Positions 5,749 through 41,067 of a stretch of 64,000 bases of DNA are shown in pieces. This DNA comes from a virus: the IMG/VR virus record IMGVR_UViG_3300036770_003454, positions 85,079 to 149,078 of that record; one strand, given 5' to 3'. Under the pieces are notes generated by a model that had not been told where the DNA came from, made no database searches, and saw only the letters and a list, made by a program, of their open reading frames with translations. Each line of letters begins with the position of its first letter. Position 1 is the first letter of the stretch. A program made the translations under genes and the position numbers.

Positions 5749-6186
5749 TTATCCCTTTTGTACTGCTTTTAACATCCAAGCATGTTTTTTATGTGCATCT
5801 ATTCTATCTTGTAGAAAGTTTGCTAATCCGAGTTGCTTTGTTCTTTCTGCTTCTGTATAAGCAAGTTCTAAATCTATCAATAAAGATTCGTTATCTTTTG
5901 CCAATCTTTGACACATGATAACAGCAGATGGAACTGATGTTTCGTCCATGATTGTTGACAATTCAGAGAATCTTTTCAATGAACCTGGAGCATATGAATC
6001 TAATGCACGAATTTGTTCCGCAATTACATCAATCGAACCGTGAACTTCTTCATACAAATTACCAAAGAATTCGTGGTATTGAGGAAAATTTACTCCTTCA
6101 ACATTCCAATGATAATTTTGTGCTTTAAGATAAAAAGCAAATGAAGAAGCAAGCACAACTTTCATTTTATTGATTAATTCTTCCAT
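5749..6186 (-). CDS. dps: Dps-like ferritin (iron-storing DNA-protection protein)
   Basis: 145 residues, the usual size of a Dps subunit. Dps forms a 12-subunit cage that oxidises Fe(II) with peroxide and can coat DNA. The ferroxidase ligands are all present with the exact spacing of E. coli Dps: His26, His38, Asp53 and Glu57 (12, 15 and 4 residues apart), inside KAQNYHWNVEG and HGSIDVIAEQIRALD. It lacks the long lysine-rich N-terminal tail of E. coli Dps. It sits among late virion genes, one base from each neighbour, so it is probably expressed late, possibly to protect or be packaged with phage DNA. Confidence 0.92.
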   Translation of the reverse strand: MEELINKMKVVLASSFAFYLKAQNYHWNVEGVNFPQYHEFFGNLYEEVHGSIDVIAEQIRALDSYAPGSLKRFSELSTIMDETSVPSAVIMCQRLAKDNESLLIDLELAYTEAERTKQLGLANFLQDRIDAHKKHAWMLKAVQKG

Positions 6187-6187
6187 A

Positions 6188-8599
6188 TTATCCTCTTGCT
6201 GACATTGTTAATGTTCGTCTTGCATTTTGACGATTTCTCATGGATACTTGAGACATTCTTCTGCTCTTTGTTGCTGCTTTCACAAATTTTGCTGTATTAC
6301 GAATACCACCAGCAACAGTTGATCCTGGTCTTGGTTTTCTTATTGGTCCTGGTCCACGTGTTGCAACATTGTGTTTTGCTGTTGGTCTTTTTATAGTAAC
6401 TTTTCTTCCAGGAGGTGCAGATCTTTTCTTTTCTTGAAATCTAACTGTTCTTCTTGTAGTTTGTCCAGCACCTATTCTTGGAACTGCCTCACACAATACT
6501 TCTTCTTTTATTGTTTGTTTGATAGTATCAGTAATTTTCTTTTTCTTGTCATCAATTGGTAATTGTCCTGGAGTATGTTCAATATAGTTCTTAGTGAGTT
6601 CTGTGGTTCCCATATCTCCTGCTCCCCCTTCTTCTCTCAACCCAATTCCTTTCAATAATCTGTGAACTATAGAATTTTTTAAATCTCTGTGGTGTTGCAT
6701 TTGTTTTAAATATGATTCTTCGGCACTGTGTCTTTTCAACCAACCAAATTGATCGTTTGGTTGAATGTTTGATTTTGCTTCTTTATATTCTGCTTTAATC
6801 AGTTGTTTTCCTTTTTTTGGGTTGTATTGTTCGCCTGATTTTTTAATATCTTTTACATATGCCCAAAAAGGAGAAGTTGGTCCAGTTTCTTTTTTAGTTT
6901 CTTCTGGTTTTGAAGTGTATCCTGGTCTATTAAAAGCAGATGCAATTCTTTCTCTTGGAGTATCTTCTTTTGGTTTCATAGGTGGATCTGGTTGTTTTTC
7001 TGCTTTTTTTTCAGATGCTTTTCTTTTTCTTGCTGCTGCTAAAGTTCTTAAAAGTTCTCTTTCACGTGCTGCCTTTGGTCCTTTTACAGAACTCAATCTT
7101 TTATATTCACCCTTTAATGATCTTCTTGCTTCTGTTATTGCTTGTCCTGGTGTAGAAACATAAGAAGGAGATGTGCTATCATCAGCATAAGGATTTGATC
7201 CAGGTGTCATCATTTGAACTGTTTGTGGAATTGTTTTTTTATCCATTTTCTTTTTTGCTTCTTCTATTAGTTCATATGCTTCTTTAACTGTTTCGTCCCT
7301 TGAATCCATATAGTCAGCAAGAGTATCAATATAGTCTGCTGCTTTAGTCAGTTTAGACTGTACCCATGCTTCTAATTCTCCCTCACCATCAAGATGCTTC
7401 ATCAGTCTTTCAATGCCTCTCATTGCTGTTCGCAATTCGTTTCTGGCCATTTCATGTTCATAATCTTCATTCAAGGATTTCCATCCACCACCTTTAGATT
7501 TATACCATTTTGCTGCCCAACCATTCGCATAGGCAGAATTTCCTGTAATGGTTATAAATCCATTTTGTACCATTACCCAAGTTTGATTTTCTGTTGTTGG
7601 GCACCAAACATCTTCAGACCCCGCATCTTCTATAATTAGGTTTTGTGTGTTATGGTATTTTTTATTTCTAATTATAGATGCTCCAGATATACTTTCTGTT
7701 TTTTCATAAAAACTGATATGATAACCGTTAAGATACGCAGCAAACAACGCAGACCAAAAATGATCATCGTTTTTTTGAGTAAATCCAAAAGTATGTCTAT
7801 CTTTGATTTTTGATGATCCCCCAACATCATGCCCATCATATATAATAGAAGATGCCAAGAAAACTTCTCTCGTTTCTTTAGACCAAGATAAAACTTTAGA
7901 TACCCAATTATCCTTTTTAGACCAATTTTCCTCTAAAAATTTATTTTCTTCGTTCTCTAAAACTGCTCCTGTGACAATTCTCATTCTTTTATGTATATCT
8001 TTAGTTTCTACCAAAGATACTTGATCATAAGCAGTTCCGGTCTTGACAACCCATTTATGATTTTCTGTTGCTTTAATACAAAATCCGGTTGATTTATATA
8101 TTTTTTTCAAAGGAGCATTTTCATAAAAATGTAGATTTGTTATTGGACCCCATTCCAACACATCTTTATTAATATTGTATGTAAGTATTTCTTCTCCTAT
8201 AGAAAGTTCATCAAAAGATTTCAATCCTTCTCTAGTAATTGCTTGACTGTCCATTGGCACACAAGGATATATCTTAAACTTTTTCTTTGCTTGTGCTTTT
8301 GCTTGTGCCCATAGTTTAGGATTTGTGGGTACATTCTTTTCCAAAAGAACTTCTTCGTTATGAGTTTTCACGAATTTTGCCTTTCCTTTTCTTTCAGCAT
8401 TTGGATCTTCTCTTCTTTTTCTTCTTGCTGCTGATGCTCTTCTTTTTTCACCTAAAGCATGTGCTTCTGCCCTAGGCAAACATTTTGGTTTGCCTTCTCC
8501 TGGTTCTTTGGCACAATCACCTTTAATCTTCCCTTTGGTGTCAAAACGAACCCATTTTTCCTTAAACCATTTTCTTAAGTCTTCGTTTATGTCAGTCAT
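6188..8599 (-). CDS. Large basic virion protein with DUF5872-like N-terminus, interrupted by an intein
   Basis: 803 residues from the ATG at 8599 (a TTG nine bases upstream is rejected). Residues 6-75 match the DUF5872 type: WFKEKWVRF, paired Cys in DCAKEP and KCLPRAEA, then RRKRREDPNAERKGKAKF. The host domain resumes after the intein as SAYANGWAAKWYKSKGG, so the spliced junction reads FKIYP-SAYANGW. The middle is helical, and the C-terminal 150 residues are extremely basic (RRTVRFQEKKRSAPPGRK, RRMSQVSMRNRQNARR), suggesting DNA contact in the capsid. It overlaps the upstream gene by eight bases. Function unknown; DUF5872 segments recur in phages and giant viruses. Confidence 0.8.
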   Translation of the reverse strand: MTDINEDLRKWFKEKWVRFDTKGKIKGDCAKEPGEGKPKCLPRAEAHALGEKRRASAARRKRREDPNAERKGKAKFVKTHNEEVLLEKNVPTNPKLWAQAKAQAKKKFKIYPCVPMDSQAITREGLKSFDELSIGEEILTYNINKDVLEWGPITNLHFYENAPLKKIYKSTGFCIKATENHKWVVKTGTAYDQVSLVETKDIHKRMRIVTGAVLENEENKFLEENWSKKDNWVSKVLSWSKETREVFLASSIIYDGHDVGGSSKIKDRHTFGFTQKNDDHFWSALFAAYLNGYHISFYEKTESISGASIIRNKKYHNTQNLIIEDAGSEDVWCPTTENQTWVMVQNGFITITGNSAYANGWAAKWYKSKGGGWKSLNEDYEHEMARNELRTAMRGIERLMKHLDGEGELEAWVQSKLTKAADYIDTLADYMDSRDETVKEAYELIEEAKKKMDKKTIPQTVQMMTPGSNPYADDSTSPSYVSTPGQAITEARRSLKGEYKRLSSVKGPKAARERELLRTLAAARKRKASEKKAEKQPDPPMKPKEDTPRERIASAFNRPGYTSKPEETKKETGPTSPFWAYVKDIKKSGEQYNPKKGKQLIKAEYKEAKSNIQPNDQFGWLKRHSAEESYLKQMQHHRDLKNSIVHRLLKGIGLREEGGAGDMGTTELTKNYIEHTPGQLPIDDKKKKITDTIKQTIKEEVLCEAVPRIGAGQTTRRTVRFQEKKRSAPPGRKVTIKRPTAKHNVATRGPGPIRKPRPGSTVAGGIRNTAKFVKAATKSRRMSQVSMRNRQNARRTLTMSARG
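7538..8263 (-). mobile_element. In-frame intein, 242 residues, with degenerate LAGLIDADG-like core
   Basis: Residues 113-354 of the host protein. It starts at Cys (CVPMDSQAITREGLKSF, block A, then IGEEILTYN). Block B is IKATENHKWVV with the TxxH motif. It ends VWCPTTENQTWVMVQ then NGFITITGN (blocks F and G) before Ser+1 of the extein. The penultimate residue is Gly instead of His, followed by the required Asn. Between the splicing halves, EVFLASSIIYDGHD and ALFAAYLNGY resemble worn LAGLIDADG motifs. The insert is larger than a mini-intein but shorter than most with a full homing endonuclease. Confidence 0.9.
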
Positions 8600-9758
8600 T
8601 TTTCTCAACTGCCATTTTGACTCTTTGATAAATGGAAGAATCTTTTGTTACAACATCCATAAGTTCATCTAATACATCCATAATCATTTCTCTATAGGCA
8701 GCAATTTTAGAATTCTTTCTAATGTCAGACATTGCTTTTTTATATTGTAGATACTTATTTTTATCTACAAGACCAACTGCCATTAGTTTATTGAATTTGG
8801 ACATATCATCTTCAAGGATTACTTCTGCAAATGTAAGGATTTCAACTTCATCTGTCATAAGTTTATTTCTATATCCAACTTGAGTATCAGCTCCAGTTAT
8901 TGATTCTGGTCCGGTTGCTGTTCTTCCTCTTCTAACAGATTTCTTAGCAGATTTTCCGGAAACACCACGAATCATTTGGGCAATTGTCCAATTATCTGCA
9001 TCCGCTGCATCAAATCCTTTAAGATGTTTTTTTGATTTGCGAACATTTCTCCAAGCAGTTCTTGCTTCTGCTTCTGGCGAAGCAAATCTTTGTTGTCTGG
9101 AATATTGTCCTCTTTTTCTTTTATGAATATTTCTTTCAGATTGTGCTTTTCTTCTTAATAGCTCTAATCTGGATATTTCATCCAATTGTTCTGTTTGCTC
9201 ATTAATTAAAAAATCGATCGCAGTTTTCTTGTTTGTCGTGATTAATGTTTCGCCGTCTGCTTTGCGTTCTGCCCGATACTTGGTTACGGTTCTCGTTGGT
9301 ATTTTAGCATGGGTCCCTGATATTTTCATAATATCACCAACGTGGTCACCATTGTTATTGTGTACCTTTTCTTCATTTTGTAAATGTGGAACTGTTGGTT
9401 CTCCATGTTTGCCTTTTAATGCTTGAAATCTTTTATATTCTGCCATACGAACTACAGGAACCAATCGCATAGCAAGTCTTTTAATTGCTTTGCCTTTTTC
9501 ATCGATTAGTTTATCAATTTGAATTTTTTGTGTGGGAGAAAGTGATTGATAGTGAGCACCTTGTTGTCCAGCAAACTTAATGCGAAACATTTTTCTTGCC
9601 AATTTTTGTGCTCTGGCATATATTACATTTTCATCAGCAAGACGTTTTCTTTTGATTGCTCTTTGTCTTACTAATTTAGGTTCAATGCGTCTTAATTGCT
9701 GTGCTCTTTTTCTGCGTTGAGCAATAGACATAACCTTTTCTACAACTAAATCTTTCAT
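8592..9758 (-). CDS. Highly basic conserved virion protein
   Basis: 388 residues, Arg/Lys-rich throughout (RRKRAQQLRRIEPKLVRQRA, HKRKRGQYSRQQRF, KSAKKSVRRGRTATG), with a more acidic C-terminal helix region. It resembles a family of basic proteins next to structural genes in marine T4-like phages; no enzyme motif is seen. A central stretch (KIPTRTVTKYRAERKADGE) looks beta-rich. The ATG at 9758 follows a late promoter box 20 bases upstream. Probably a DNA-binding head protein; this is inference from charge and context. Confidence 0.75.
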   Translation of the reverse strand: MKDLVVEKVMSIAQRRKRAQQLRRIEPKLVRQRAIKRKRLADENVIYARAQKLARKMFRIKFAGQQGAHYQSLSPTQKIQIDKLIDEKGKAIKRLAMRLVPVVRMAEYKRFQALKGKHGEPTVPHLQNEEKVHNNNGDHVGDIMKISGTHAKIPTRTVTKYRAERKADGETLITTNKKTAIDFLINEQTEQLDEISRLELLRRKAQSERNIHKRKRGQYSRQQRFASPEAEARTAWRNVRKSKKHLKGFDAADADNWTIAQMIRGVSGKSAKKSVRRGRTATGPESITGADTQVGYRNKLMTDEVEILTFAEVILEDDMSKFNKLMAVGLVDKNKYLQYKKAMSDIRKNSKIAAYREMIMDVLDELMDVVTKDSSIYQRVKMAVEKND

Positions 9759-38107: not shown

Positions 38108-39637
38108 TTATAAAATTGACTTTTTTACAAATACCAATGTTCCACAATCATATATTCTTTTGTATCCGTTGTCTTCCATATATTGTTTCTCTGTAATATC
38201 ATTACATATATTTAATTTTTTCTTTGTATAATTTGACCTATGCATTCTTTTTTCGTTTTTTGATAAATCAACATAAGCATATGATGGTGGATTGCGTTTA
38301 ATTAATACAAACCCATTTTTCAAATATACATTTCCTTGTGACCTTGAATAATCAGCATAGGATATAATATCTCCTTGATATTGTTTTTGAAAATTCTTTA
38401 GTAGTTTAGAAAATCCTCCTACACAAGAAATTCCTTGACCAACACAATATCTTGACAGTTCCCACGGATAGTTTTTGTTATACCTGGATTTACAAAAAGT
38501 CATAATGCTTATGATTTTATCATCGTCATATAAGGCAAACCAAATGCTTGATTTATCATCACCTTGCAAATGATTTTTATTTAAAAACTGTTTTTTGTCT
38601 GTTTGTGATGGTATTCTTATTGTCAATTTCCTCGCATACAATCTTTGGTATGGTTGTTCCAAAAGATTTACCAGAATAGACTTCCATATATCTTGTTTAT
38701 AGATCCAATCATCACTAAAGATATGAATCAACCTAACACCTACTTTCTCGCACTCAAGTGTTTTTGATATATGATACTTTCTGTCTTTTCTTAATGCAGG
38801 GTTGGAGTGTTCTGGTCTAAATGCGTGATAAAACACTCCATTATATTCAATCGCAAGTTTTTTAGATGGAATATATAAATCTACTTCCTTGCCATTCAAT
38901 AATGTTCTGTCGTTGATTAAAACTTGGTCTTGTCCAATAATAGAACAAACATAATCAATAACTTGCTGATGTTGTCCAGATATTTTATTAAATTTTCTTG
39001 GATAACTGTTTGGTTGATTGGTCTCAATTTCGTGATAGTTCAACCACCTACTTACTGTTGCTTTAGAACTACCAACCATTTCTGCTATTTCTTCAACCTT
39101 CTTTCTTTGATTACAATGTAAATCAAACAACCATTGTTTATCTTGTAGTTTCAACAATATAAGGGGTTGAGAACAATTGTGTTGAACCATAGGTATGTTA
39201 TGTTGAATACATGCTTTTTTTATTGGATTAATAGAACAGTTAATCAATTCTGCGATTTCTTCATAAGACTTTTTCAAATCAATTCTTTGATAATATAACC
39301 AATCTTTATCATTTAGTTTTTGATAAGTATCTTGATTCAATCTGTGTCTATGAGATCTACTACAATCTGGACCACAATAATTGCTAAATTTATTTTGATA
39401 TGATTTGTTATATGTTACAGGCAACCCACAGACTATACAGTTAGGGAAAGTTTGCTCCGTATAACCAAGATGTATTGCTAAACAACGAATCTTTAGTGGA
39501 GAATCAATCGGCATCCATTGTGTATAATTTATTATTGTTTCACGAAGTTGTTTGTTTACTGATAAAGAAATCATATATTTCTTATCAAAGATTCTTTCGT
39601 CACATATTTGTTTGAGATCAATCATTATAGTTTCCAT
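38108..39637 (-). CDS. Homing endonuclease with Vsr/EDxHD-like nuclease domain
   Basis: 509 residues from the ATG at 39637; the reading can be extended to a TTG at 39688, but that lies inside the gp23 terminator. The N-terminal third has two Cys pairs (CIVC, CGPDC) and two helix-turn-helix-like repeats (SYEEIAELINCSINPIKKAC and KVEEIAEMVGSSKATVSRWL). The nuclease core is GKEVDLYIPSKKLAIEYNG, VFYH, then ECEKVGVRLIHIFSDDW, the Vsr/EDxHD pattern. The C-terminal 180 residues may form a DNA-specificity domain. It sits directly downstream of gp23, a typical homing location. Confidence 0.85.
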   Translation of the reverse strand: METIMIDLKQICDERIFDKKYMISLSVNKQLRETIINYTQWMPIDSPLKIRCLAIHLGYTEQTFPNCIVCGLPVTYNKSYQNKFSNYCGPDCSRSHRHRLNQDTYQKLNDKDWLYYQRIDLKKSYEEIAELINCSINPIKKACIQHNIPMVQHNCSQPLILLKLQDKQWLFDLHCNQRKKVEEIAEMVGSSKATVSRWLNYHEIETNQPNSYPRKFNKISGQHQQVIDYVCSIIGQDQVLINDRTLLNGKEVDLYIPSKKLAIEYNGVFYHAFRPEHSNPALRKDRKYHISKTLECEKVGVRLIHIFSDDWIYKQDIWKSILVNLLEQPYQRLYARKLTIRIPSQTDKKQFLNKNHLQGDDKSSIWFALYDDDKIISIMTFCKSRYNKNYPWELSRYCVGQGISCVGGFSKLLKNFQKQYQGDIISYADYSRSQGNVYLKNGFVLIKRNPPSYAYVDLSKNEKRMHRSNYTKKKLNICNDITEKQYMEDNGYKRIYDCGTLVFVKKSIL

Positions 39638-39668
39638 TCTATGGTTTGGTATCTGTTGTAATATAGAT

Positions 39669-39697
39669 AAAAAAGAAGGGGGAATCAACCCCCTTCT
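39669..39697 (-). terminator. Rho-independent terminator of gp23
   Basis: AGAAGGGGG (39697-39689 on the minus strand) pairs with CCCCCTTCT (39682-39674), followed by TTTTTTATC. Located 21 bases after the gp23 stop. Confidence 0.92.
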
Positions 39698-39717: not shown

Positions 39718-41067
39718 TTACATCAAGTTTGTAACAAGAACTCTTCTGTAGTAAACATTGCTGTCCTTAGTAAGTGCACCAACACCAGCAGTTGCACCTT
39801 CGGCAAATGGATTTGCTACCATTCCATAACGAGTCTTGAATCCAATCTTTGGATGGAATGAGTCTTGATCAACTGCACGAACCATTTGGAGAGGAACGTA
39901 TGGGCAGTAGAATAGACCGGCATCAAATGCGTTTGATCCCTTATAACCTACGACCATATAGTTTCCACCTGTTGCATATGGGTCGATATAGACACGCATA
40001 CGACCGTTAAGAACACCAGCAAATGTATTACCAGTATCATCAACATTAAGTTGGTTGCTATTAAGTGCTGGAGCATAATCAAGGATACCTGCCATTTGAA
40101 GTGCAGAAGCAACATCTGATGAACAGATTACGATATTGCCCTTCCCTCTACGGGTATCTTTTGCGATCTTATTAGCTTCTCTTTCAACTTGGAACATAAG
40201 ACCCTTGAACTTTTCAACTGACCAACGACCGTTTGAGTCTGTATCAAGATCAAAGATACCAGAAGTTGTTGTACCTTCTGTAGCACCCTTAGTTGCAGTA
40301 ACAAGGATTGTACGAACTACTTCACGATTGATTTCTGCAAGAATTTCAGCAGAAAGAATGTTTGATAGTTCTGTTTCTGCATCAAGACCGTGAATTGCCT
40401 TAAGATCTTGTGCAAGTTCCATTGTGTATTCTGCTTTGAGAGCACGTGACTTTGCAGTAACGGCAACCTTTTCAATGCTGAATGCCATTTGAGCAAATGC
40501 AGTATTGTCAGTTGTACCAAGTGCTTCTGCTTGTGCAGTTGACATTGCTGAACCGAAGTTATAGATTCCTTCTTCAGCAAGGTTTGCTGTTACAGTTGTG
40601 TTGCCTGGAAGAGTACCAACATGCTTTTGACCAAGTGTGTTTGCACCAGAAACAACTGAAGAGAATGCAGTATTGACTTCGTTGTAGAATGTTTCTGTGT
40701 GTGTTTGGTTAGCATATCTTGCACGCATTGCGAAGATAAGTCCTGTTGGACCTGTCATTGGCTGAACGCCGCAGATATCATAAGCAATAAGATTTGGCAT
40801 TGCACGACGAACGAGAGAAATAAGAACAGGATCGAAAGTGTCGATTGCACCATCAGATGCTGTAGAGCTAGATGCTCTCATTGCGTTTGCTGGAATTGGA
40901 TTTTCAACAAGGAACTGGCTTGAATAAGCAGAACCTTCACGAAGTGCCTTTTCTGTATTTTCAAGAAGAACGGCAGTTGTATTACGGCGATGAATGTCCT
41001 TAATTGGGTTAAGGTCTTCATGCTCTAGAATTGGCTTCCACTTGTTATTAAGTTGTTCTGTTAACAT
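39718..41067 (-). CDS. 23: Major capsid protein gp23
   Basis: 449 residues, HK97-fold capsid protein. The N-terminal region (MLTEQLNNKWKPILEHEDL) and the capsid blocks ALVRRAMPNLIAYDICGVQP-like SLVRRAMPNLIAYDICGVQP, RRGKGNIVICSSDVASALQ and GSNAFDAGLFYCPYVPLQMV match gp23. The maturation cleavage by gp21 is expected within SSQFLVE-NPIP near residue 56, i.e. after Leu-x-Glu. It has a late promoter upstream and a strong terminator downstream. Confidence 0.97.
   Translation of the reverse strand: MLTEQLNNKWKPILEHEDLNPIKDIHRRNTTAVLLENTEKALREGSAYSSQFLVENPIPANAMRASSSTASDGAIDTFDPVLISLVRRAMPNLIAYDICGVQPMTGPTGLIFAMRARYANQTHTETFYNEVNTAFSSVVSGANTLGQKHVGTLPGNTTVTANLAEEGIYNFGSAMSTAQAEALGTTDNTAFAQMAFSIEKVAVTAKSRALKAEYTMELAQDLKAIHGLDAETELSNILSAEILAEINREVVRTILVTATKGATEGTTTSGIFDLDTDSNGRWSVEKFKGLMFQVEREANKIAKDTRRGKGNIVICSSDVASALQMAGILDYAPALNSNQLNVDDTGNTFAGVLNGRMRVYIDPYATGGNYMVVGYKGSNAFDAGLFYCPYVPLQMVRAVDQDSFHPKIGFKTRYGMVANPFAEGATAGVGALTKDSNVYYRRVLVTNLM

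Follow-up and report, generated by a model that had tools for sequence, protein, structure and literature searches.

A T4-like phage genome very probably carries, inside a gene with a DUF5872-type module, a mobile intein that would excise itself from the host protein and home by means of a LAGLIDADG domain; we infer both the splicing and the DNA cleavage. The window, which is the whole stretch of DNA analysed (64,000 nucleotides), comprises bases 85079-149078 of the 149,078-base IMG/VR virus record IMGVR_UViG_3300036770_003454. The interest of the element lies in a mixed catalytic signature, in three insertion sites within one motif and in a one-repeat nuclease, all of them computed or noted by eye.

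Insert boundaries and predicted splicing

The minus-strand codons across the insert were ...ATATATCCT / TGTGTGCCAATG ... ATTACAGGAAAT / TCTGCCTATGCGAATGGT, with 242 codons in frame, the first being TGT (Cys) and the last AAT (Asn), followed by TCT (Ser). The 242-residue in-frame insert described in the earlier note, with Cys1, block A, a TxxH block B, the ending NGFITITGN and Ser+1, was found exactly where it had been placed (Table 1). The features that mark an intein, namely a nucleophile at residue 1, TxxH in block B, a terminal Asn and Ser, Thr or Cys at +1, were all present.

Table 1. Positions in the window of the intein-bearing gene, its exteins, and the motifs and domain of the intein
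Feature	Position	Strand	Description
Host gene precursor	6188..8599	-	803 aa from ATG (MTDINEDL...), open frame
N-extein	8264..8599	-	EDLRKWF module and first half of DUF5872 module, ends ...KKKFKIYP; phrog_727 and phrog_23735 matches
Intein	7538..8263	-	242 aa, Cys1 to Asn242; from intein-free homologues, family alignment and HINT fold
Block A	8225..8263	-	CVPMDSQAITREG, with Cys1; Cys1 in 71/71 distinct complete members
Block B	8045..8086	-	GFCIKATENHKWVV (with TENHKW): Thr B:7, His B:10, Trp B:12
Single LAGLIDADG repeat	7634..7930	-	Intein residues 112-210; AF2 pLDDT 88, structure matches, dN/dS
LAGLIDADG motif FLASSIIYDG	7832..7861	-	Acidic Asp143
Block F	7565..7615	-	EDVWCPTTENQTWVMVQ, with Cys F:4 (Cys221)
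Block G	7538..7564	-	NGFITITGN: Thr G:5, Gly G:6, Asn G:7; then Ser+1
C-extein	6191..7537	-	Ser+1 AYANGWAAKWYKSKGGGW, then EAWVQSKLTKAADYID module and basic C-terminus

The 47-aa module formed by joining the two flanks was used as a query, and it had at least 590 relatives in viral contigs. Among the best 80 of these, 79 read through YPSAYANGW unbroken, which bears out the claim that the host is continuous across the splice point. The empty, intein-free site was KFDVYPSAYANGW. In GC content the insert (0.315) did not stand out from the exteins (0.363) or the window (0.329). The curated models scored the insert low (Pfam Intein_splicing 16.6 bits, cut-off 35.8; TIGR01445 14.8, cut-off 24.5) because the family is divergent, and Pfam Intein_splicing found nothing above threshold across the phage's own genome.

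The AlphaFold2 model built from 8 sequences had a HINT fold (pLDDT 77). The best VIA structure match was 6zgq, the class 3 AceL NrdHF intein (Z 17.9, rmsd 2.1, 143 aligned), and class 1 inteins scored within 1-2 Z units of it, so the HINT fold does not decide the class. Z was at least 5 for 113 of the 996 aligned chains, and the matches listed were inteins and other HINT domains. A direct search of the single intein sequence against solved structures gave no match; the family profile found, by sequence, NrdJ-1 (E 5e-7) and AceL NrdHF (E 2e-6). Going by the sequence, the insert can be taken as an intein with exact boundaries, and it would be expected to splice.

Once translated within the host protein, the insert would fold into the HINT splicing domain, and the N-terminal peptide bond would be passed to the thiol of Cys1; Cys F:4 could assist, act as a relay or be the first nucleophile instead. 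From the residues, His B:10 and Thr G:5 would activate this step. The chain would then pass to Ser+1, Asn242, preceded by Gly and not by the usual His, would cyclise, and the ester would become a peptide bond that joins ...KKFKIYP to SAYANGW... and restores the DUF5872 module. The spliced junction peptide would read KFKIYPSAYANGWAAK.

Catalytic residues and class of the intein family

Scans of viral contigs gave 7 loci at first and 47 related loci with a profile, 41 of which were complete and had splice residues in common with the window copy. A wider profile confirmed 160 relatives; 80 were kept, and 71 distinct complete inteins remained after partial and identical copies were dropped, 4 of them from bacterial genome contigs. 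Cys1 and the Gly-Asn end were each found in 71/71, figures that lean on the filter, as a complete member was one that starts with Cys and ends with GN. All the full-length matches in the first, unfiltered list also began with Cys and ended with GN, and partial loci that were set aside but seen in full (L145, L148, L153 and L154) had Cys at the N-junction too. Cys F:4 was likewise found in 71/71, a count that is inflated because the scan patterns partly contained WCP and that includes L235 by eye, its block F (AWCPQT) lying outside the regular expression. Thr G:5 was present in 70/71 and Trp B:12 in 65/71; no scan pattern contained Cys1, Thr G:5 or Gly G:6. The +1 residue was Ser in 52 inteins, Cys in 12 and Thr in 7.

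The class 3 inteins Msm/Mch DnaB1, AceL NrdHF, Dra Snf2 and Catera Gp206 share Trp B:12, Cys F:4, Thr G:5 and the F-to-G spacing with this family. Catera Gp206 has Ser1 together with WCT. The distance from Cys F:4 to Asn G:7 was 21 residues in most members, a spacing shared by the class 3 DnaB inteins of Msm and Mle (numbering PMC5222942). However, class 3 inteins are defined as having no nucleophile at position 1 (PMC7891396, PMC5050341), whereas the class 1 residue (Cys, Ser or Thr at position 1) was present throughout the window family as an invariant Cys1. Judged by its residues, the family combines the class 3 WCT motif with the class 1 nucleophile and lies between the class definitions. 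Since Cys1 was found in 71/71, it was not filed as class 3; it would work like a class 1 or a class 3 intein.

In a class 3 route, Cys F:4 (Cys221), together with Trp B:12 and Thr G:5, would make a direct attack on the N-junction, and Cys1 would be dispensable. This is a variant of the leading explanation, and its likelihood overlaps with that of the latter; we consider it quite possible, if on balance doubtful. The full W-C-T set at B:12, F:4 and G:5, spaced as in class 3 inteins, agrees with it, as does the nearest solved structure, the class 3 AceL NrdHF intein, which also ends in Gly-Asn like the window family (PMC7891396), but an idle Cys1 would not be expected to stay invariant in 71/71 over deep divergence, and the definitions of class 3 leave no room for a position-1 nucleophile (PMC5050341, PMC7891396).

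The Gly-Asn ending noticed earlier is real, but it is the rule of the family (71/71) and no oddity, as other inteins with this ending splice well (PMC5050341, PMC7891396). The mycobacteriophage Bethlehem gp51 (RDF) intein, which is treated as class 1, has a penultimate Gly and splices completely, and its change to His (G316H) is harmful and slows splicing (PMC5050341). G145H likewise impairs the class 3 AceL NrdHF intein (PMC7891396). Because Gly to His impaired both of these inteins, the penultimate Gly is, by analogy, no defect.

These residues bear on how class 3 inteins arose. When WCT and Cys1Ala were grafted on the class 1 gp41-1 intein, splicing largely stopped, and the step from class 1 to class 3 was judged improbable (PMC7664689). 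A family with both Cys1 and WCT is the bridge type that such a step would need, and their coexistence makes the origin of class 3 testable with two point mutants. A more far-reaching reading, which we regard as rather unlikely in its entirety, is that Cys1 and Cys F:4 are both catalytic, forming a dual-nucleophile relay and a living class 1/class 3 intermediate, in one lineage that is specialised on one short motif, has shifted its insertion point 9-12 bp between clades and carries a one-repeat homing endonuclease.

Nuclease domain

The middle part of the intein was modelled alone from 33 sequences (pLDDT 88), and the order of its elements was helix-helix-strand-strand-helix-strand-strand, in keeping with the alpha-beta-beta-alpha-beta-beta repeat fold of LAGLIDADG homing endonucleases. 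In both PI-SceI (residues 288-422; Z 8.4, moderate) and I-DmoI (residues 89-172; Z 7.3) it matched the second repeat; these enzymes have two repeats per chain, in contrast to the one found here. Foldseek with the domain alone gave weak matches (E ~0.02), and Pfam LAGLIDADG_3 had matches in 4 of 35 relatives (best 2.6e-6); the domain is called LAGLIDADG on the strength of these matches, the Z of ~8 and the motif. The motif acid was Asp or Glu in all 41 members with a residue aligned there. Two worn LAGLIDADG-like motifs had been proposed, and this was ruled out: there is one motif, FLASSIIYDG, and the second stretch is the ordinary helix 2 of a single repeat. Two repeats per chain, as in PI-SceI and PI-PfuI, were not found in the window copy. 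The alternative to two-repeat chains is a dimer of single-motif chains, as in I-CreI; a one-repeat endonuclease would have to dimerise.

The dN/dS of the nuclease part was 0.035-0.15 in 12 pairs, similar to that of the splicing part, by simple Nei-Gojobori counts in which several dS values were near saturation. These values, the retained acidic residue and recent horizontal transfer speak against the suggestion of a decaying homing endonuclease. Sequence and model together point to a compact one-repeat LAGLIDADG domain under purifying selection, from which we infer DNA cleavage. The domain, probably as a dimer, would cut intein-free DNA coding for (Y/W)PSAYA, and repair of the cut would copy the intein in.

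The nuclease part could instead be a non-cutting remnant half that is kept for folding, the intein being spread by ordinary recombination. This has a real but minor chance of being correct: the window copy has one repeat where the bacterial relatives L145 and L153 apparently have two (by eye), and nuclease-free mini forms exist (L124, 163 aa; L228, 168 aa; L238, 138 aa), but the acidic motif residue in 41/41, the low dN/dS and the near-identical inteins in divergent DNA are against it. Homing endonucleases have a life cycle in which such losses of the nuclease are expected.

Relatives of the intein and their hosts

In tblastn, precursor residues 116-358 matched DNA polymerase inteins and, for some of these residues, a Gordonia tape measure protein. 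The insert was ~35% identical from end to end to the annotated DNA polymerase I intein of PaulScherrer. Besides this full-length identity, the DNA polymerase I inteins of Stephanstirmvirinae (phi92, PaulScherrer) share Cys1, WCT, ITITGN, a similar length (245 aa) and one LAGLIDADG repeat with the window copy; they differ in lying in DNA polymerase I and in having Cys at +1, and the intein is all that they share with the window gene. The GenBank mat_peptide of the PaulScherrer intein (L001:3004-3738) is one codon off, as it begins with Val2 and ends on the +1 Cys. Mycobacterium and Gordonia phages (KilKor, Hail2Pitt) have inteins in DNA methyltransferase, portal and terminase proteins that are alike in Cys1, VWC at F:4, the TGN end and Ser+1, but these inteins are ~330-355 aa long, have apparently two LAGLIDADG-like repeats (by eye) and lie in other hosts. 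An intein-like segment with Cys1 and VWCPTT was also seen in the tape measure protein of Gordonia phage Twinkle (L242:1501-2700), ending in LTSN and not TGN.

Host proteins, named by eye from sequence, included DNA polymerase I (L116, L128, L131), calcineurin-type phosphoesterases (L118, L119, L121, L226) and portal-like proteins (L122, L223), and DUF5872-type modules were also among them. The host was tiny in several loci (33+37, 45+36, 40+30 and 35+29 residues from stop to stop), far below the intein in size. To judge from these matches, the insert belongs to a wide phage intein family, and a chance origin is far off.

The insert is highly unlikely to be a HINT domain of the bacterial-intein-like (BIL) kind or a dead one, with cleavage only or no activity. 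The low curated-model scores and the penultimate Gly could be read in this way, but the +1 nucleophile and terminal Asn were present in 71/71, the sequence is under purifying selection, the host motif is exactly continuous, and BILs are without the +1 nucleophile (PMC4031507). The idea that the host protein normally includes this segment as one of its domains can practically be dismissed, as nothing beyond the open frame was found for it, 79 of the best 80 (of at least 590) relatives are without the segment, and similar segments occur in genes for DNA polymerase I, phosphoesterases and portal-like proteins.

Mobility and insertion points

The inteins of L096 and L098 were 95.2% identical in DNA and the adjacent 150 nt 72.0%; for L091 and L092 the values were 93.8% and 81.3%, with flank identities counted without gaps. 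Farther out, these loci were 67-82% alike in scattered pieces. Near-identical inteins in divergent DNA thus point to recent intein transfer between divergent phages. Across all site a pairs the correlation between intein and flank identity was 0.85, so most of the intein history may be vertical or transfer between near relatives.

Three insertion points were found within a dozen bases of one seven-residue motif. Site a, YP/SAYANGW, held 24 distinct inteins with the window copy counted, a few reading SAYANAW or similar, and divergent phages carry the insert there. Site b, YPSAY/SNG, held 2 inteins, and the usual Ala of PSAYANG is here Ser, as splicing needs. Site c, (W/F)PSAYA/SG, held 18 inteins, one of them cut close on the N side. 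Inteins 9 or 12 bp further along PSAYA were seen at L115:3501-4430, L120:3501-4418, L189:2501-3334 and similar loci. By eye, the sites have CCNWSNGCNTAYGC, or a sequence close to it, as a common DNA core. DUF5872 was the best Pfam family for the modules of sites a, b and c, those of b and c being below the cut-off; the site c module is phrog_727, which the N-terminal module of the window protein also matches. In the tree, all PSAYA inteins but one fell in one cluster (93/96), with a site c clade (100/100); the exception was L238, a long-branched mini form. On the tree, therefore, one lineage appears tied to the PSAYA motif, its insertion point having moved 9-12 bp. Inteins usually settle at functional hot spots. 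With this habit and three insertion points in PSAYA(N/S)G, the motif is likely the functional core of DUF5872, an uncharacterised phage module.

Host gene

The host protein would have 561 aa after splicing. The gene has its stop codon at 6188-6190, and the TTG-started ORF extends to 8608, the ATG at 8599 being the better start. The earlier description of the host stretch as DUF5872-type was supported, though at borderline strength: the spliced window module scored 27.2 bits for DUF5872 (PF19197; E 6.4e-6), just under the gathering cut-off of 27.5, and the equivalent module of the relative L004 scored 31.5 bits. In the Pfam search DUF5872 was scored only once the insert had been taken out, and the match covered the first 38 of 116 model positions, the first third. 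The isolated 47-aa module gave this match, whereas a Pfam search with all 561 aa of the spliced protein did not find DUF5872. No second DUF5872 copy was found in the phage's own genome. The listing of DUF5872 extends to an algal virus (PMC12085832).

The host had also been called a virion protein, which its PHROG matches, all "unknown function", neither support nor exclude. Its neighbours include a virion structural protein gene (phrog_1645) and, directly downstream, a ferritin/Dps-like gene at 5749-6186 on the minus strand (PF00210 E 3.6e-20, phrog_3636). When the whole precursor was compared with phage records by tblastn, pieces outside the insert matched cyanophage proteins, mostly of unknown function. 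The best-conserved C-extein module occurs in cyanophage S-SM2, in a gene of unknown function flanked by gp16 and gp17. The upstream gene (8592-9758, minus strand) overlaps the start of the host gene. In L014, a stretch similar to this upstream gene (MQRQKRARIMRR...) is fused to the DUF5872 protein, which suggests gene fission or fusion.

Genome setting

Matches to T4-type families were found for the major head protein, scaffold, head protease, portal, sheath and terminase, as well as for a UvsX-like recombinase, a DnaB-like helicase and DNA polymerase. The closest cultured phage by major head protein was Stenotrophomonas phage DLP6 (71.5%), followed by Sinorhizobium phages. By these matches and the nearest head proteins, the source of the window is a T4-like phage. 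Two adjacent minus-strand ORFs, 1162-2205 and 2287-2739, match consecutive parts of phrog_451 (primase-type), and an HNH endonuclease ORF (552-1121) adjoins them; together they may represent a split or interrupted primase gene. A large homing endonuclease-like ORF at 38108-39688 on the minus strand (phrog_3339, E 2e-95) adjoins the major head protein gene at 39718-41067.
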